64,000 bases of DNA from Candidatus Amunia macphersoniae (lineage in GTDB: Bacteria; Chloroflexota; Dormibacteria; Aeolococcales; Aeolococcaceae). This document shows, one piece after another, positions 22,059 to 31,808 of the stretch. The translations under genes and the position numbers were made by a program. The notes under the pieces were generated by a model, which ran no database searches, was not told the origin of the DNA, and saw only the letters and a list, made by a program, of their open reading frames with translations. Within the stretch, counting starts at the first letter, position 1. Each line of letters opens with the position of its first letter. The stretch spans positions 1-64,000 of the forward strand of contig JAEKNN010000053.1 of assembly GCA_016464795.1 (NCBI GenBank). Reading direction: 5' to 3'.

Positions 22059-23501
22059 TCAGCCGACGGATACCGCCGCCGCCGCGATCGCGGCAGCGCG
22101 CGCCGGATCGCGGAGCACACGCATGAAGGGCTGGCGACGCTCCTCCCACACCTCGGCGGCAGCCACCAGCTGCGGATGACCGTCGATGAAGTGGGTGGTG
22201 TAGGTTCCGGCGGCAAAGTCTGGGTCATCGAGGATGGCGAGGTGGTACGCGATGTTGGTGCTGATGCCGGTGATCGCGTACTCGAGCAGGGCGCGGCGCA
22301 TCCGGGCGATGGCCAGCTCTCGCGTCGGGCCCCAGACGATCAGCTTGGCGATCATCGGGTCGTAGTTCGGCGACACCATCCCGGGGGCGGCGAGCGCTGA
22401 GTCGACGCGCACGCCCGGGCCGCTCGGCTCCCGATAGCCCGTCACCTGTCCGGGTGCCGGCATGAAGTTCTTGGCGTACTTCTCGGCGTTGACACGGCAC
22501 TCGATGGCGTGTCCGCGCGGCACCAACTCCTCTTGGCGCAGCTCCAGTCGCTCACCGGCGGCGATGCGCAGTTGCTCGACCACCAGGTCGACCCCGTACA
22601 CCAGCTCGGTCACCGGATGCTCGACCTGCAGGCGGGTGTTCATCTCCAGGAAGAAGAACTCGCCGTTGCTGTAGATGAACTCCACTGTGCCGGCATTGAC
22701 GTAACCCACCGCGCGCGCCGCGGTGACCGCCGCCTCACCCATGCGCGCGCGCGTGGCTGCGTCGATGATCGGCGACGGCGCCTCCTCGAGGATCTTCTGG
22801 TGGCGGCGCTGAATCGAGCACTCGCGTTCGCCGAGATGGACGACGTTGCCGTGGGTGTCGGCGAGCACCTGGATCTCGATGTGTCGTGGCGATTCGACGT
22901 ATCGCTCCAGGAACACTGTGGCATTGCCGAAGGCGCGCTGAGCTGTGCTCTGGGCGATCTCCAGGCCCTCACGCAGCTCGACCTCGTCGCGCGCCACCCG
23001 CATGCCAATGCCCCCCCCACCGGCGGATGCCTTGATCAGCACCGGATAGCCGACCTCGCCGGCTGCAGCCACGGCTGCGTCGACGTCCTCGAGCGCGTCA
23101 CTGCCGGGCACGATCGGCACCCCGCTGTCGGACATGCGCTGCCGCGCCGGCACCTTCTCACCCATCGCGGCCATCGCTTCCGGCGTGGGTCCGATGAAGG
23201 TGATGCCGTGGTCGGCGCACGCCCGCGCGAACGCCTGGTTCTCACTGAGGAAGCCGTAACCAGGATGAACGGCCTGGGCGCCGGTGGCGAGAGCTGCCTC
23301 GATGATCCTGTCGATCACCAGGTACGACTGCGCCGAAGGTGCCGGCCCGATCTCCACAGCCTCGTCGGCGAGCAGCGCGAACGCGGCGGTGCGATCCGCC
23401 TCGCTGTGCACAGCGACGGTGGCGATGCCGAGGTCGCGGCAGCCGCGGATCACGCGCAGGGCGATCTCGCCCCGGTTGGCGACCAGCACCTTGGTGAACA
23501 T
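22059..23501 (-). CDS. accC: Biotin carboxylase subunit
   Basis: 480 residues, normal for AccC/PycA. The N-terminal domain begins VLVANRGEIALRVIR. HPGYGFLSEN, GEKVPARQ (nucleotide Lys), the glycine-rich KASAGGGGIGMR, HLGERECSIQRRHQK and the catalytic FLEMNTRLQVEHPVTE are all present, so the ATP-dependent carboxylation of biotin should work. Its start overlaps the stop of the carrier/carboxyltransferase gene (TGATG). The two therefore probably form one two-subunit biotin enzyme, even though the partner's carboxyltransferase site is abnormal. Confidence 0.95.
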   Translation of the reverse strand: MFTKVLVANRGEIALRVIRGCRDLGIATVAVHSEADRTAAFALLADEAVEIGPAPSAQSYLVIDRIIEAALATGAQAVHPGYGFLSENQAFARACADHGITFIGPTPEAMAAMGEKVPARQRMSDSGVPIVPGSDALEDVDAAVAAAGEVGYPVLIKASAGGGGIGMRVARDEVELREGLEIAQSTAQRAFGNATVFLERYVESPRHIEIQVLADTHGNVVHLGERECSIQRRHQKILEEAPSPIIDAATRARMGEAAVTAARAVGYVNAGTVEFIYSNGEFFFLEMNTRLQVEHPVTELVYGVDLVVEQLRIAAGERLELRQEELVPRGHAIECRVNAEKYAKNFMPAPGQVTGYREPSGPGVRVDSALAAPGMVSPNYDPMIAKLIVWGPTRELAIARMRRALLEYAITGISTNIAYHLAILDDPDFAAGTYTTHFIDGHPQLVAAAEVWEERRQPFMRVLRDPARAAAIAAAAVSVG

Positions 23502-25297
23502 CAGTCGACCTGGACCACCGGAGCGCGAGGTCCGACGACGTCGCCCTCCCTGACGTGGACGGCGCTGATCGTGCCCGCCCGGGTCGCGGTGACGTCGTTC
23601 TGCATCTTCATCGCCTCGAGGACGGCGACCACGTCACCGAGCCCCACCTTGTCGCCAACCTTGACCGCAACTTTGAGGATCAGGCCCTGCATCGGGGAGA
23701 GAACGGTTCCCTCGCGCACCGCCGCCGCGCCTGGAGATGCGGGGCTGGTGGTGGGCGCCGGACCGCTGTCGCGGAGGCCGGCGCCCGTCACCCGCACGCT
23801 GTAGCTCTGGCCGTCGACCTCCACTGTGAGCTCGCGCACCTCGGCGGGCACAGCCTCGACAGGGAGATCATCGCTGAGCGCCTCGGCTGCCGTGGCCTCG
23901 GAGACATCGAGCGGCGACTCAGGTGGGGGCTCGCCCTCGTCACCGAGCCGCTCCGGCACCACCTCGCCGCGGTGCAGGGCCAGGGTCTCACCGGGGAACA
24001 GCGCGTAGCTGACCAGCAGGACGTCATCGGGGTTGGCGACCTCCTCGCGCCGCAGCTCACGACGAAGGGACGCCAGGGAGGGCTCGAGCAGGTCGGCCGG
24101 ACGGCAGGTGATCGGTTCCTCGCGCCCGTTGACTAACCGACGCACCTCGGGATCGATCTGGTACGGCGGTGAACCGTAGAGACCGAGGCAGTAGTCCTTC
24201 ACCTCCTGGCTGACCGTTGCGTACCTGTCACCGTCGCACACGTTGTAGACGGCCTGGGTGGCGACGATCTCGATGAGCGGCGTCACCAGCGGCGGGTGGC
24301 CCAGCTCGGCGCGCACCCGTGAGGCCTCGGTCTCGACGTCGTCGAGGCGGTCGAGCTGGTCGCGGTCGCGGAGCTCGCCGAGCGCGTGGCCCATCGCAGC
24401 CGGGGGCAGCAGTCCGCGCAGGGCGGCGCTGTCGAGACGCAGCGAGGGAACGTCGACGATGCCGGAGTACGCGGTCAGCTGGTGCTCGAGAACTGACGAC
24501 GCCTCGGTGACGCGGTCGAGGTTCATCCCGGTGTCGAGCTCGGTGCCGCGGAGCGCGGCGATGACCCCTTCCGCAGACGGGACCGAGGCGCCGCCGGCCA
24601 GCGGGGCCAGGGCGACGTCGAGGCGGGACGCGCCCGCGACCGCGGCAGCGTAGGCGGCGAAATCGGCCTGGCCGGTCTGGGTGGACAGCGAGAGCGCCAG
24701 GGGGAGGCCGGAGGCCTCGGCGACGCGCTGCACCAGGTCACTGACGCGGGCCACTCCGAGCAGGCCGAGCGGGTCATGGATGCAGATGGAATCGGCCCCG
24801 ATGTCGACAAGCTCCTCGACCAGGGCGACGATGCGATCGGGGTCGTGTCGCGGCGAGTCGGCGTAGACGATGGCGGCCTCCACCTGGCGGTTCGCTTGGC
24901 GGGCTGCGACCATCGCCCGGCGCAGGTTGCGCACGTCGTTGAGCGGGTCGTGGATGCGGAACCTGTCGATGCCGGCGTCGGCCGCGACTCTGATGAAGGC
25001 GTCGACCACGTCGTCGCTGACCTGGCGGTGACCGGCGAGCGCCTGGCCACCGAGAGAGGCGAGCAGCGTGCTCGACGGGGCAGCCTCGCGGATGGCGCGG
25101 AGCGTCGCGAACGGGTCCTCGCCGAGGAATCGCAGCGACGCCTCGAAGGTGGAGCCGCCGAAGACATCCAGCGCTGCGAAGCCGCAGCCGTCGAGCGCGC
25201 CGGCCACAGGGACGGCGTGGCGGCTGCGCAGGCGGCTCAGCAGCAGCGCCTGCTGTCCCGCCCGCAGGGAACACTCGACGAGCTCGAGACGGGGCAT
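23501..25297 (-). CDS. PycB/OadA-like carboxyltransferase + biotin carrier, catalytic residues lost
   Basis: 598 residues. The HMGL-like barrel (1-280), the PYC/OADA conserved domain (about 290-460) and the C-terminal biotinyl domain with EAMKMQND (biotin Lys) are in the usual PycB order. The active site is erased. The metal Asp of the LRDxxQS loop is Ala (CSLRAGQQA), and the carboxylated Lys of ICIKDMAG is His (ICIHDPLG). The HxH metal pair is SxS (LALSLSTQTG), and the Arg of the LLRGQN motif is Gly. The overall fold signatures (LDVFGGSTFE, FRIHDPLNDVRN, GTELDTGMNL) persist and there are no frameshifts. It either uses different chemistry or acts only as a biotin carrier and scaffold. A TACAAT box lies 8 nt upstream. 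Confidence 0.85.
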   Translation of the reverse strand: MPRLELVECSLRAGQQALLLSRLRSRHAVPVAGALDGCGFAALDVFGGSTFEASLRFLGEDPFATLRAIREAAPSSTLLASLGGQALAGHRQVSDDVVDAFIRVAADAGIDRFRIHDPLNDVRNLRRAMVAARQANRQVEAAIVYADSPRHDPDRIVALVEELVDIGADSICIHDPLGLLGVARVSDLVQRVAEASGLPLALSLSTQTGQADFAAYAAAVAGASRLDVALAPLAGGASVPSAEGVIAALRGTELDTGMNLDRVTEASSVLEHQLTAYSGIVDVPSLRLDSAALRGLLPPAAMGHALGELRDRDQLDRLDDVETEASRVRAELGHPPLVTPLIEIVATQAVYNVCDGDRYATVSQEVKDYCLGLYGSPPYQIDPEVRRLVNGREEPITCRPADLLEPSLASLRRELRREEVANPDDVLLVSYALFPGETLALHRGEVVPERLGDEGEPPPESPLDVSEATAAEALSDDLPVEAVPAEVRELTVEVDGQSYSVRVTGAGLRDSGPAPTTSPASPGAAAVREGTVLSPMQGLILKVAVKVGDKVGLGDVVAVLEAMKMQNDVTATRAGTISAVHVREGDVVGPRAPVVQVD

Positions 25298-27694: not shown

Positions 27695-29062
27695 TCACCC
27701 CGTCGTGTTCGATGCTGTCGCTGTCGAGTCGTTGCCCGCGATGTTGCTGCCCGCATCCTGGCCACGTCCAATGTCGGTGCGATGCTGCATGCCTGCGAAG
27801 CTGATCCTGCCAACCGCGCCGTACACGTGTTCTCTCGCCTCCTCCGTTCTCTCGCCGCGGGCGACCAGTGTGACGACGCGGCCGCCCTCGGTGCGCAGAG
27901 TGCCATCGGGATGGCGGCGGGTGCCGGCGTGAAAGGCGAGCACGTCGCCATCGGCTGCGCTGCTGGGGCCGAGCCCCTCGAGACCCTCGATGAGGTCGCC
28001 GCGCCGCGGGGATGCCGGGTAACCTGCGGCAGCCAGCACCACACCGACAGCGGAGGACTGCGCGCGGCGTGCCACCCGTCCAGCCGCGAGATCGCCGTGC
28101 GCGCAGTCGAGCAGCAGCGCAAGCACGTCCTCGCCGAGCACGGGCAGCAGCACCTGGGTCTCAGGGTCACCGAAGCGCGCGTTGAACTCGAGCACCCGCG
28201 GACCGTCGGCGGTGAGCATCAGCCCCGCGTACAGGCAGCCCGAGAACGGTGTGCCGGCGGCGGCCAGTGTGTCGATGCAGGGACGCAGGACGTCGCCCTC
28301 GACGCGGGCGAGCAGCGCGTCGTCGACACCGGCGGGCGGGGTGACAGCGCCCATGCCGCCGGTGTTGGGCCCGGTGTCACCGTCGCCGATGCGCTTGTAG
28401 TCGCGCGCAGCCGGAAAGAGGCGCAGCCTGCGTGAGTCGGTGAGCGCCAGCACGCTCACCTCGGGCCCCTCGAGCCGCTCCTCGACAAGGACTGTGTCGC
28501 CGGCGCTGCCGAATCGCTGCTCGTCGATGCAGGCGCCGATGGCCGCACGGGCGGCGGAAACGTCATCACACACCAGCACGCCCTTGCCCAGCGCCAGCCC
28601 GTCGGCCTTCACCACACAGCGGCCCTCGAGCTCCTCGACAAAGCCGAGCAGGGCGTGGCGTTGGGCGACGGTGCCGGCTCGCCACCGTGCGGTGGGGATG
28701 CCGGCGCGGTCCATCACCAGCTTGGCGAATGTCTTGGAGCTCTCGATGCGAGCCGCGGCAGCGGTCGGCCCGAAGACGGCGATGCCGGCGGCCATGCATG
28801 CGTCGGCGACCCCGGCGGCGAGAGCTGCGTCGGGACCGACGATGACCAGCGCGACATCGTGCTCACGCGCTGCCCTGACCATGCCGGCGGGGTCGTCGGC
28901 AGCGACGGGCACGTTGGTGGCGAATCCCGCTGTCCCGCCATTGCCTGGTGCGCAGATGATCTCCACCTGGTCGCCGCCGCGCCTGCAGGCCCACGCCAGC
29001 GCGTGCTCGCGGGCCCCCGAACCGGCGACCAGCACGCGCAACGGCGGGCGGCTTACTCCCAC
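27695..29062 (-). CDS. purD: Phosphoribosylamine-glycine ligase
   Basis: 455 residues with the GARS ATP-grasp layout. The N domain has [15 protein letters not shown] and [26 protein letters not shown] binds nucleotide. The ATP-grasp core has [19 protein letters not shown] and [15 protein letters not shown]-terminal GARS domain follows. It converts phosphoribosylamine and glycine to GAR. It carries about 20 extra residues at the C terminus, rich in Asn/Ser/Thr/Gly. The start overlaps the end of guaA by 10 nt. Confidence 0.95.
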
Positions 29063-30639
29063 TCGATGGTGGAGGGCGGCTTGCTCGAGATGTCGTACAC
29101 CACGCGGTTGACGCGAGCCACCTCGTTGACGATGCGCCGGCTCATCACAGCGAGCACGTCGTACGGGATCTTGGCCCAGTCGGCGGTCATGCCATCATCG
29201 GACTCGACGATGCGGATGGCGACGACGTTGGCGTAGGTGCGGTTGTCGCCCATCACCCCCACCGACGAGATCGGGGTGAGGATGGCGAAGCTCTGCCACA
29301 CCTTGCGATACAGGCCGCTGCGCTTGATCTCGTCGATCACCACCCAGTCGGCGGCGCGCAGAGTGTCGAGCCGTTCCTGGGTGACCTCGCCGATGATGCG
29401 GATGGCCAGGCCGGGGCCCGGGAACGGCTGGCGCCACACCATGTCGTCGGGCAGGCCGAGCGCAAGCCCCACCTGGCGGACCTCGTCCTTGAACAGGTAA
29501 CGGAGCGGCTCGACGAGCTGGAAGCGCAGGTCCTCGGGCAGGCCGCCAACGTTGTGGTGGGTCTTGATCTTCTGCGCGTTGTGGGTGTCATGCGACGTGG
29601 ACTCGATGACGTCGGGATAGAGCGTGCCCTGGGCGAGGAAGTCGATGTTGCCGAGCCGGCGCGCCTCCACCTCGAAGACCTCGATGAAGGTGCGGCCGAT
29701 GCGGCGGCGCTTCTCCTCGGGATCGGCAACTCCGGCAAGCGCGGTGAGGAACCTGTCGGTGGCGTCGACGTGCACCAGATCGATGTGGCGCTGGTGGCTC
29801 ATCACCTCGACGACGCGCTCCCCCTCGGCGCGCCGCAGCAACCCGTTGTCGACGAACACGCAGGTGAGCTGGTCGCCGATCGCCTGGTGCACCAGCGTGG
29901 CCGCCACCGCGGAGTCGACGCCGCCGCTGAGCGCGCAGAGCACGCGACCGTCACCGACGCGGGTGCGGATGTCGTTGACAGCCATCTCGATGAACGACGA
30001 CGGCGCCCATGTGCCGGCGCAGCCGCAGACGTCGATGAGGAAGTTGCGCAGGATGTCTCGCCCCAGCGGGGTGTGCACCACCTCGGGGTGGAACTGGATG
30101 CCGTAGCGGCCCTTGGGGCCGCTGATGGCCGCATGTGGGGAGTTGAGCGAGTGCGCCACCGACCTGAAGCCCGCGGGCAGCTCGGCGATCACATCCCCGT
30201 GGGACATCCAGACGTCGATCTCCGACGGCAGCCGGTCGAAGATACCGCTGCGGTCGTCGACGCTGATCGAGGCATGGCCGTACTCGCGGCGCTCGGCGGG
30301 TCGGACTGCCCCACCGAGCTGCTGGGCCAGCAGCTGCATGCCGTAGCAGACACCGAGGATGGGCAGATCGAGCTCGTAGAGCGCAGGGTCGGGGTGGGGC
30401 GCGCCGGGGTCGTACACCGATGCCGGGCCGCCGCTGAAGATCAGGCCTTTCGGCGCACGAGCGCGCACCTCCTCGGCCCTCACGGTGCCCGGAACCAGCT
30501 CGCAGTAGACCCTGGCCTCACGGACGCGACGGGCGATCAGCTGCGAGTACTGGGAACCGAAGTCGAGCACCAGCACGGTGTCCTGGGCGACCGCAGGGTC
30601 CGCGGGCGCGACCACCTCCTGCTCGGGTGCAACGGCCAT
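29053..30639 (-). CDS. guaA: GMP synthase (glutamine-hydrolysing)
   Basis: 528 residues from ATG 30639. The class I glutamine amidotransferase domain begins [20 protein letters not shown], has the nucleophile Cys in [13 protein letters not shown], and ends with the His-x-Glu in [11 protein letters not shown]. The ATP-pyrophosphatase domain has the P-loop [12 protein letters not shown], and the C-terminal dimerisation domain ends [10 protein letters not shown]. It aminates XMP to GMP. The ATG lies 9 nt after the guaB3 stop. Confidence 0.97.
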
Positions 30640-30647
30640 GCCGCCGC

Positions 30648-31808
30648 TCACACCCCCATCCCGACCCGCTGGTCTCTCTGCTGCATCTTGCCTTCGGTCT
30701 TGATCGACGGTGCGATCACCATCTCGGTGCGCTGGAATTCCTGGATGGTGCGCGCCCCACACATCCCCATCGATGTCTTCAGGGCGCCGACCAGGTTCAT
30801 GCTGCCGTCATCGACGTGGGCGGGGCCGAACAGGATCTCGGCAAGGCGGCCCTTGATGCCTGTGCGAATGCGTGTCCCGCGGGGAAGGTTGGGGTCCGGT
30901 GTGGCCATGCCCCAGTGGTTGCCACCACCGGCTGCCTCTGTGGCTGACGCGAACACCGAGCCGATCATGACCGCGTCAGCTCCGCTGGCGAACGCCTTGG
31001 CGACGTCACCGCCGAGGCGCATGCCGCCATCGGTGATGATGGCGACCCGCTCACCGCTGCGGCGGAGGTGGTCGTCGCGAGCAGCTGCGCAATCAGCCGT
31101 GGCGGTGACCTGAGGCACGCCGACACCCAGGACGGCCCGGCTGGTGCAGGCGGCGCCCGGACCGACCCCCACCAACAGGCCCTTCACACCCGTGTCCATG
31201 AGCTCCAGCGCCGTGGCGTAGTCCACACAGTTGCCGACGATCACCGGCATGTCGATGGAGGCGGTGAGGTCCTTGAAGGAGAGGTGCTTGTAGATCTTGC
31301 TGACGTGGCGCGCGGTGAGGACCGTCCCCTGAACCACCAGCACGTCGGCACCGGCCTCCGCAACGATCGGTGCACGCCGTTCGGCGCCGGCCGGAGTGGT
31401 GGAGACTGCGCACGGCACCCCGGCGGCGACCACCTCTTCGATGCGCTGGCCGATCAGGCCGTCCTGCACCGGCTGGGTGTAGATCTTCTGCAGGAGCACG
31501 TTGATGTCCTGCGGGCTGGACTCGGCGATGTCGTTGAGGACCTCGGAGGGATCCTCGTAGCGGGTCTGCACGCCGTCGAGGTTGAGTACCGCCAGGCCGC
31601 CGAGCCGGCCCATCTCCTGGGCGAAGGGGACGTCGACCACCCCGTCCATGGCGGCGGCGAGAAAGGGGATGCCGAATGTCGAGCCGTCGAGTGGGAAGCT
31701 CACGTCGATCTCAGCCGGGTTGATGGTCACCCGTCCGGGGACCAGCGCGACCTCGTCGAAGCCGTAAGCGCGCCGCGCCATCTTCCCCCTACCGAGCTCG
31801 ATCTCCAT
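30648..31808 (-). CDS. guaB3: GuaB3-type IMP dehydrogenase-family protein
   Basis: 386 residues, shorter than true IMPDH because there is no CBS (Bateman) pair. Barrel signatures are [43 protein letters not shown] with the catalytic-type Cys, [27 protein letters not shown] and [18 protein letters not shown]. This is the actinobacterial-type GuaB3 branch. Whether it makes XMP from IMP or acts otherwise is not certain. It is first in the guaB3-guaA-purD-purE-ridA block. GGGAGGTCG precedes the ATG, and the leader upstream is unusual. Confidence 0.9.

Follow-up and report, generated by a model that had tools for sequence, protein, structure and literature searches.

A pyruvate carboxylase-type beta subunit with a dismantled active site, predicted to serve as biotin carboxylase scaffold and biotin carrier in an order of Dormibacteria

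Results

A 64,000-nucleotide stretch of the Candidatus Amunia macphersoniae genome (assembly GCA_016464795.1, contig JAEKNN010000053.1, positions 1 to 64,000; hereafter the window) encodes, on the minus strand, a 598-residue beta subunit of the PycB/OadA/5S type (23501..25297) whose carboxyltransferase site is dead. It adjoins a 480-residue biotin carboxylase (BC) of the PycA/AccC type (22059..23501, minus strand), the sole BC found in this genome. The site has been lost throughout the order to which the window belongs, and selection on the protein has been retained. We propose that this pseudo-carboxyltransferase has probably been kept as a predicted BC scaffold and as a biotin carrier for acyl-CoA carboxyltransferases.

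The beta subunit was defined by its open reading frame (ORF), domain searches and structure-based alignment, and the BC by its ORF, a profile search and motifs. The beta-subunit ORF begins with ATG and contains no internal stops or frameshifts; its stop codon is overlapped by one base by the ATG of the BC gene (TGATG). A domain search placed an HMGL-like barrel, a PYC_OADA domain and a Biotin_lipoyl domain in that order, and the NCBIfam model for the pyruvate carboxylase subunit B domain matched with an E-value of 1e-142. The (beta/alpha)8 carboxyltransferase barrel comprises residues 3-275 (24473..25291; domain search, alignment and AlphaFold model), the PYC_OADA, or conserved carboxylase, domain residues 309-467 (23897..24373) and the biotin carboxyl carrier domain residues 530-597 (23507..23710; domain search), all on the minus strand. 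The last of these carries the biotin-accepting AMKM lysine, Lys564 (codon 23606-23608, minus strand), within the motif EAMKMQND. The BC scored above the TIGR00514 cut-off and its ATP-grasp catalytic motifs are intact. The original prediction, made from the window sequence, had described this domain order, the biotin lysine, the absence of a frameshift and a canonical, directly coupled BC, all of which were borne out.

Alignment to the solved structures of PycB (5ks8), OadA (2nx9) and transcarboxylase 5S (1rqb) revealed the extent of the loss within the barrel (codons on the minus strand). The metal-binding aspartate is an alanine (LRD to LRA; A13, 25259-25261), the substrate arginine a glycine (LLRGQ to SLGGQ; G83, 25049-25051), the carboxylated lysine a histidine (IKD to IHD; H174, 24776-24778) and the metal-binding HxH pair SxS (S203-L-S205; 24689-24691 and 24683-24685). 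These are the four replacements that had been predicted, and two further losses had been overlooked: the catalytic Ser/Thr of the PycB/OadA/5S motif PGGM[LI][ST]N is a glycine (G303, 24389..24391, minus strand; alignment), and the last phenylalanine of FRxFD is H116. The earlier description of the site as completely replaced thus held for the ligands, the lysine and the arginine, but was slightly overstated, as R12, Q16, G84, Q85, D117 and D175 remain and are essentially invariant.

An AlphaFold2 model built from a 25-sequence alignment had a mean predicted local distance difference test score (pLDDT) of 85.7, with most of the barrel above 90. When 447 columns were superposed on OadA (2nx9) the deviation was 1.6 A and the template modelling (TM) score 0.95; the deviation from transcarboxylase 5S was likewise 1.6 A. 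With the fold matching OadA this closely, there is no other way of aligning the sequence that would recover the ligands, and a misalignment concealing them in another part of the barrel was ruled out by the PDB alignment and the superposition. In Rhizobium etli pyruvate carboxylase (PC) Thr882 is essential and the T882A mutant is inactive (PMC5895798). Since loss of this residue alone is sufficient to inactivate that enzyme, the window protein very probably has no 2-oxoacid carboxyltransferase activity of the known mechanism left.

To place the loss, we considered four coded families of the class, f1 being that of the window and f2 belonging to the same order; the relatives' genomes are drafts, 58-99% complete. 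A PycB-like protein was present in 103 of 110 class genomes, and similar sequences in named records came from Candidatus Dormibacterota/Dormibacteraeota and from soil metagenome-assembled genomes deposited as Chloroflexi. Across f1 and f2 the metal aspartate, the lysine and the second histidine were gone from every full-length orthologue checked. The first histidine, arginine and Ser/Thr were lost in many or all orthologues of the order, the arginine being kept in 15/37 and the first histidine in 15/39. None of the 22 outgroup sequences, which come from other phyla, has lost any part of the site.

Intermediate states were found in the remainder of the class. In f4 the metal site, lysine and arginine are intact and the Ser/Thr is glutamate in 15/17 proteins. 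In f3 the lysine is glutamate in 11/11 and the Ser/Thr is alanine, the other site residues being kept. Genus g25 (L096, L097) has lost the lysine (alanine, asparagine) and kept the aspartate and HxH; in L097, one of its two proteins, histidine also replaces the arginine preceding the metal aspartate. The simplest reading is a stepwise decay in which the catalytic Ser/Thr went first, then the lysine, then everything. Two features of these sites were noted separately. The catalytic Ser/Thr-Asn pair of f4 (L079-L095) is nearly always Glu-Asp in otherwise canonical sites, and the invariant glutamate of f3 (L099-L109), where all other metal ligands are kept, could mimic carboxylysine, so that the f3 proteins may continue to use a metal, though for a changed reaction.

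A maximum-likelihood tree recovered f1 and f2 as a single clade (hereafter the dead clade; SH-aLRT, the Shimodaira-Hasegawa-like approximate likelihood ratio test, 99), f4 with g25 as another (100) and f3 as a third (100), and separated the class from the outgroups (99), these supports being indicative only because a quick method was used. The replacements A/H/SxS had been suggested as a set that might define a clade. They do not, as the residues vary within the clade; it is the loss of the ligands that defines it. Canonical close homologues, which would have pointed to local decay, were also sought. Relatives within the order, at 44-79% identity to the window protein, lack the residues, and homologues from the sister order, at 43-45% identity, possess the metal site. 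The loss is thereby dated to the origin of the window's order. Decay confined to the window was ruled out by dozens of orthologues with the same losses.

More distant proteins of this kind were also encountered. Dead forms that have diverged much further, with long branches, occur in genus g14 (L039/L110/L113) and as L098; they keep EAMKMQND and the PYC_OADA motif. Beyond Dormibacterota, PycB-like proteins from Desulfoluna limicola (L231), Clostridia RGIG4119 (L225) and Bacillota Ch109 (L226) have lost their catalytic motifs partly or largely and are perhaps independent cases of site loss; among these three, a BC gene was seen only in the stretch around L226. A tblastn search of plasmids returned OadA/5S-type matches only.

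Selection was assessed from the ratio of non-synonymous to synonymous substitution rates (dN/dS) by the pairwise NG86 method on close pairs, the absolute values being rough given this method and the high G+C content. Barrel dN/dS was 0.03-0.20 in dead-clade pairs against 0.02-0.06 in f3/f4; relaxed selection, with a ratio near 1, had been named as a possible sign of decay, and these values lie well below it. The ratio of barrel to PYC_OADA dN/dS was 0.46-1.95 in the dead clade and 0.14-0.77 in f3/f4 (Mann-Whitney p ~0.001, pairs without shared rows), indicating that the dead barrel is relaxed relative to f3/f4. Conversely, the biotin lysine was invariant in all dead-clade proteins scored, the PYC_OADA and carrier motifs were near-invariant and the PYC_OADA domain as a whole was strongly conserved. 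The fold, the BC-docking elements and the biotin domain are under purifying selection.

The six lost barrel columns have an entropy of 0 in the 22 outgroup sequences, so chance is not an issue. In the dead clade their mean entropy is 1.86 bits, higher than the 1.27 bits averaged over the barrel (p 0.04 by resampling), with the metal aspartate replaced by H/Q/Y/A/W/L/S and the carboxylated lysine by H/F/Y/Q/N/R/L. Among the 52 columns that are invariant in the outgroups and f3/f4, those lost in the dead clade were D13, W63, L81, R83, F116, P182, L188, H203 and H205, mainly catalytic positions; Lys174 is missing from this list because f3 already lacks it. Residues newly conserved and specific to the dead clade were limited to S21, R26, F63, E140, P176, E308 and L451, among which no new catalytic set was found. 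The old site has been released without a visible new one.

The elements through which two-subunit PCs hold their BC are present in the window. In the Methylobacillus flagellatus enzyme (MfPC) an alanine-rich hydrophobic helix at the C-terminus of the alpha subunit is wrapped by beta strands of the linker between carboxyltransferase and biotin domains, joining alpha to beta (PMC5059739). The adjacent BC gene of the window likewise ends in a hydrophobic alanine-rich C-terminal helix, DPARAAAIAAAAVSVG (22062..22109, minus strand; compared with PMC5059739), and this tail is kept in orthologues. In the beta linker, a BT-like strand pair, RELTVEVDGQSYSVRV (residues 488-503; 23789..23836, minus strand), is the predicted BC-docking element by comparison with the MfPC structure; within it V492, E493, V494, D495, G496, V501 and R502 are invariant in the dead clade. 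The predicted parts for holding BC and those for carrying biotin are thus kept, and the acceptor site alone is gone. Median linker length was 60 residues in f1, 77 in f2, 56-59 in f3/f4 and 42 in the outgroups (8 caught by motif search). A lengthened linker might signal a longer carrier arm, although this is suggestive only, the linker being of low complexity and the outgroups few.

The window genome contains one PYC_OADA gene, one BC and five carboxyl_trans matches, none with its own BC. These comprise a FabH-AccD-AccA arrangement that lies on a single contig, a carboxyltransferase that follows an HMG-CoA lyase, and two more genes of the PccB type. Across the 110 class genomes BC was present exactly once in nearly all, usually adjoining the PycB-like gene; the exceptions with extra BC matches include G006, G010, G013, G018, G022, G036 and G044. 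In G010 a cluster of a small carrier, a PccB-type carboxyltransferase and a second BC (C1:210283-213336; L143) was observed alongside the dead PycB and its BC. Carboxyl_trans genes were found in all 41 relatives searched, most of which possess both AccA/AccD-type and PccB-type.

In nine f2 genomes (G025, G026, G028, G030, G031, G032, G033, G034 and G037) no biotin carrier was found besides the dead protein. The other PF00364 matches fetched from these nine bear TDK/TEK (lipoyl) or GcvH-like ESSK motifs, one sub-cutoff match in G037 being left out of the motif reading. AccA/AccD in these genomes would therefore have only the dead protein to draw on. Small carrier-like matches were also present in f3 and f4. 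Phosphoenolpyruvate (PEP) carboxylase was found in nearly all f3/f4 genomes and in the window genome, and in only a few f2 and some f1 genomes.

Upstream of the carboxylase genes and on the same strand lie purD, guaA and a GuaB3-type IMP dehydrogenase-related gene (27695-31808), in which no tie to the carboxylase finding was seen.

Discussion

We suggest the following mechanism. Pyruvate would no longer be carboxylated by the beta subunit, nor would any other 2-oxoacid through the known metal/carboxylysine mechanism; the subunit would instead act as the docking partner of the cell's only BC. In a step that consumes ATP and bicarbonate, this BC would carboxylate the biotin attached to Lys564, and the C-terminal arm would bring the carboxybiotin to AccA/AccD and PccB/MccB-type carboxyltransferases encoded elsewhere, resulting in carboxylation of acetyl-CoA and other acyl-CoAs. 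What remains for the barrel would presumably be structural, in dimerisation and the holding of BC. The dead protein would have been retained because a single BC serves carboxyltransferases that have none of their own and, in the nine f2 genomes, alongside no other carrier. That AccA/AccD use its carboxybiotin is what we infer, most strongly for f2. The earlier suggestion of a carrier or scaffold whose real carboxyltransferase lies elsewhere gains support from the single BC, the acyl-CoA carboxyltransferases lacking a BC, the docking elements and the nine f2 genomes. On balance we also lean towards a wider proposition: throughout the order, the acyl-CoA carboxylases, among them the acetyl-CoA carboxylase that feeds fatty-acid synthesis, would depend on a single promiscuous BC. 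Its carrier would be a dismantled PC beta subunit that descends from an active ancestor by successive losses, beginning with the catalytic Ser/Thr.

Several points weigh against this interpretation. The whole case is computed from genomes and a predicted structure, and we found no solved precedent for delivery by a PYC-type BC and biotin carrier to AccA/AccD. The window genome and most f1 genomes own a second biotin carrier of ~70 residues (LESMKMEIP), often beside a PccB-type gene, so the dead protein is not the sole carrier there. Furthermore, in two f2 genomes (G027, G029) neither the dead protein nor a BC was found, yet carboxyltransferases are present; this would be either an assembly gap or a real loss. 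In drafts as incomplete as these each single absence is weak, and it is the repeated pattern that counts.

The small carrier of f1 raises a narrower form of our proposal, compatible with it, in which the dead protein of that family serves only some partners (for example the HMG-CoA-lyase-linked or a PccB-type carboxyltransferase) and AccA/AccD draw on the small carrier. We regard this as possible but unlikely; the separate carrier in f1 genomes speaks for it, whereas none was found in the nine f2 genomes. The original prediction had offered, as its other option, that the protein transfers CO2 by other chemistry to an unknown acceptor; on this account the acceptor would be bound in the old pocket. 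Purifying selection on the barrel, the retained fold and the invariance of R12, Q16, Q85, D117 and D175 would fit such an activity. However, the kept pocket residues do not vary in the canonical family either and may have a structural role, the positions of the former ligands hold a wide assortment of residues inside a single clade, and the seven clade-specific positions listed above amount to no conserved set of new ligands or nucleophiles. The varying replacements and the lack of a new set argue against new chemistry, which we consider improbable.

An equally doubtful, or slightly more doubtful, account holds that the operon survives for the sake of BC and that the barrel is functionless and disappearing. 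The apparent stepwise loss across the class and the relaxed constraint on the barrel relative to the PYC_OADA domain agree with a decaying remnant, but full-length ORFs have been retained in two families, dN/dS is far below 1 and the PYC_OADA and carrier motifs barely vary. As for an error of sequencing, assembly or annotation, the window does belong to an assembly that is still a draft, in 72 contigs; dozens of other, independently assembled genomes nevertheless show the same losses, in proteins with as little as 44% identity, and these orthologues exclude it for practical purposes. The scaffold and carrier role remains the explanation that we favour.

Model-based annotation names these proteins pyruvate carboxylase or oxaloacetate decarboxylase and thereby credits the bacteria with an anaplerotic route that they probably lack. 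As this route is probably absent and no PEP carboxylase was found in several f2 genomes, carbon models of these soil/Antarctic bacteria would be wrong; in those f2 and f1 genomes where a dead pyruvate carboxylase coincides with no PEP carboxylase found, anaplerosis is left unexplained. If our interpretation is true, an enzyme has here become the carrier for other enzymes, which is rare, and the old hypothesis that pyruvate- and CoA-type carboxyltransferases draw on a common, promiscuous BC becomes directly testable in bacteria. In the open-access literature searched, we found neither a dead PYC-type carboxyltransferase described, as a carrier or otherwise, nor the acetyl-CoA carboxylase of Dormibacteraeota.

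Among characterised systems, MfPC PycB (5ks8) shares with the window protein its domain order, fold, BC partner gene, alanine-rich alpha C-terminal helix, beta-strand docking element and biotin domain. It differs in that the window protein has lost all the metal, lysine and Ser/Thr residues tested, in that its sequence shows no evident counterpart of the second BT-like hairpin of MfPC, and in that no further BC is available to the acyl-CoA carboxyltransferases of the window genome. OadA and transcarboxylase 5S share the barrel and PYC_OADA fold to within the 1.6 A given above; unlike them, the window protein is without a metal/carboxylysine/Thr site and has a BC gene in its operon, and no membrane decarboxylase subunit, as in the context of OadA, was found among the neighbouring genes scanned. 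A single promiscuous BC common to pyruvate- and CoA-type carboxyltransferases has been proposed for Archaea by Lombard & Moreira 2011 (PMC3199775), so that this element is not new. There too one BC per genome would serve several kinds of carboxyltransferase; here, however, the setting is a bacterial class, and in one of its orders all that is left of the pyruvate-type carboxyltransferase is a putative carrier. Finally, AccB, the biotin carboxyl carrier protein (BCCP), and fused BC-BCCP alpha chains resemble the window protein in supplying biotin to CoA carboxyltransferases, as it is predicted to do, but its carrier domain is neither free nor fused to BC, being joined instead to a dead TIM barrel.

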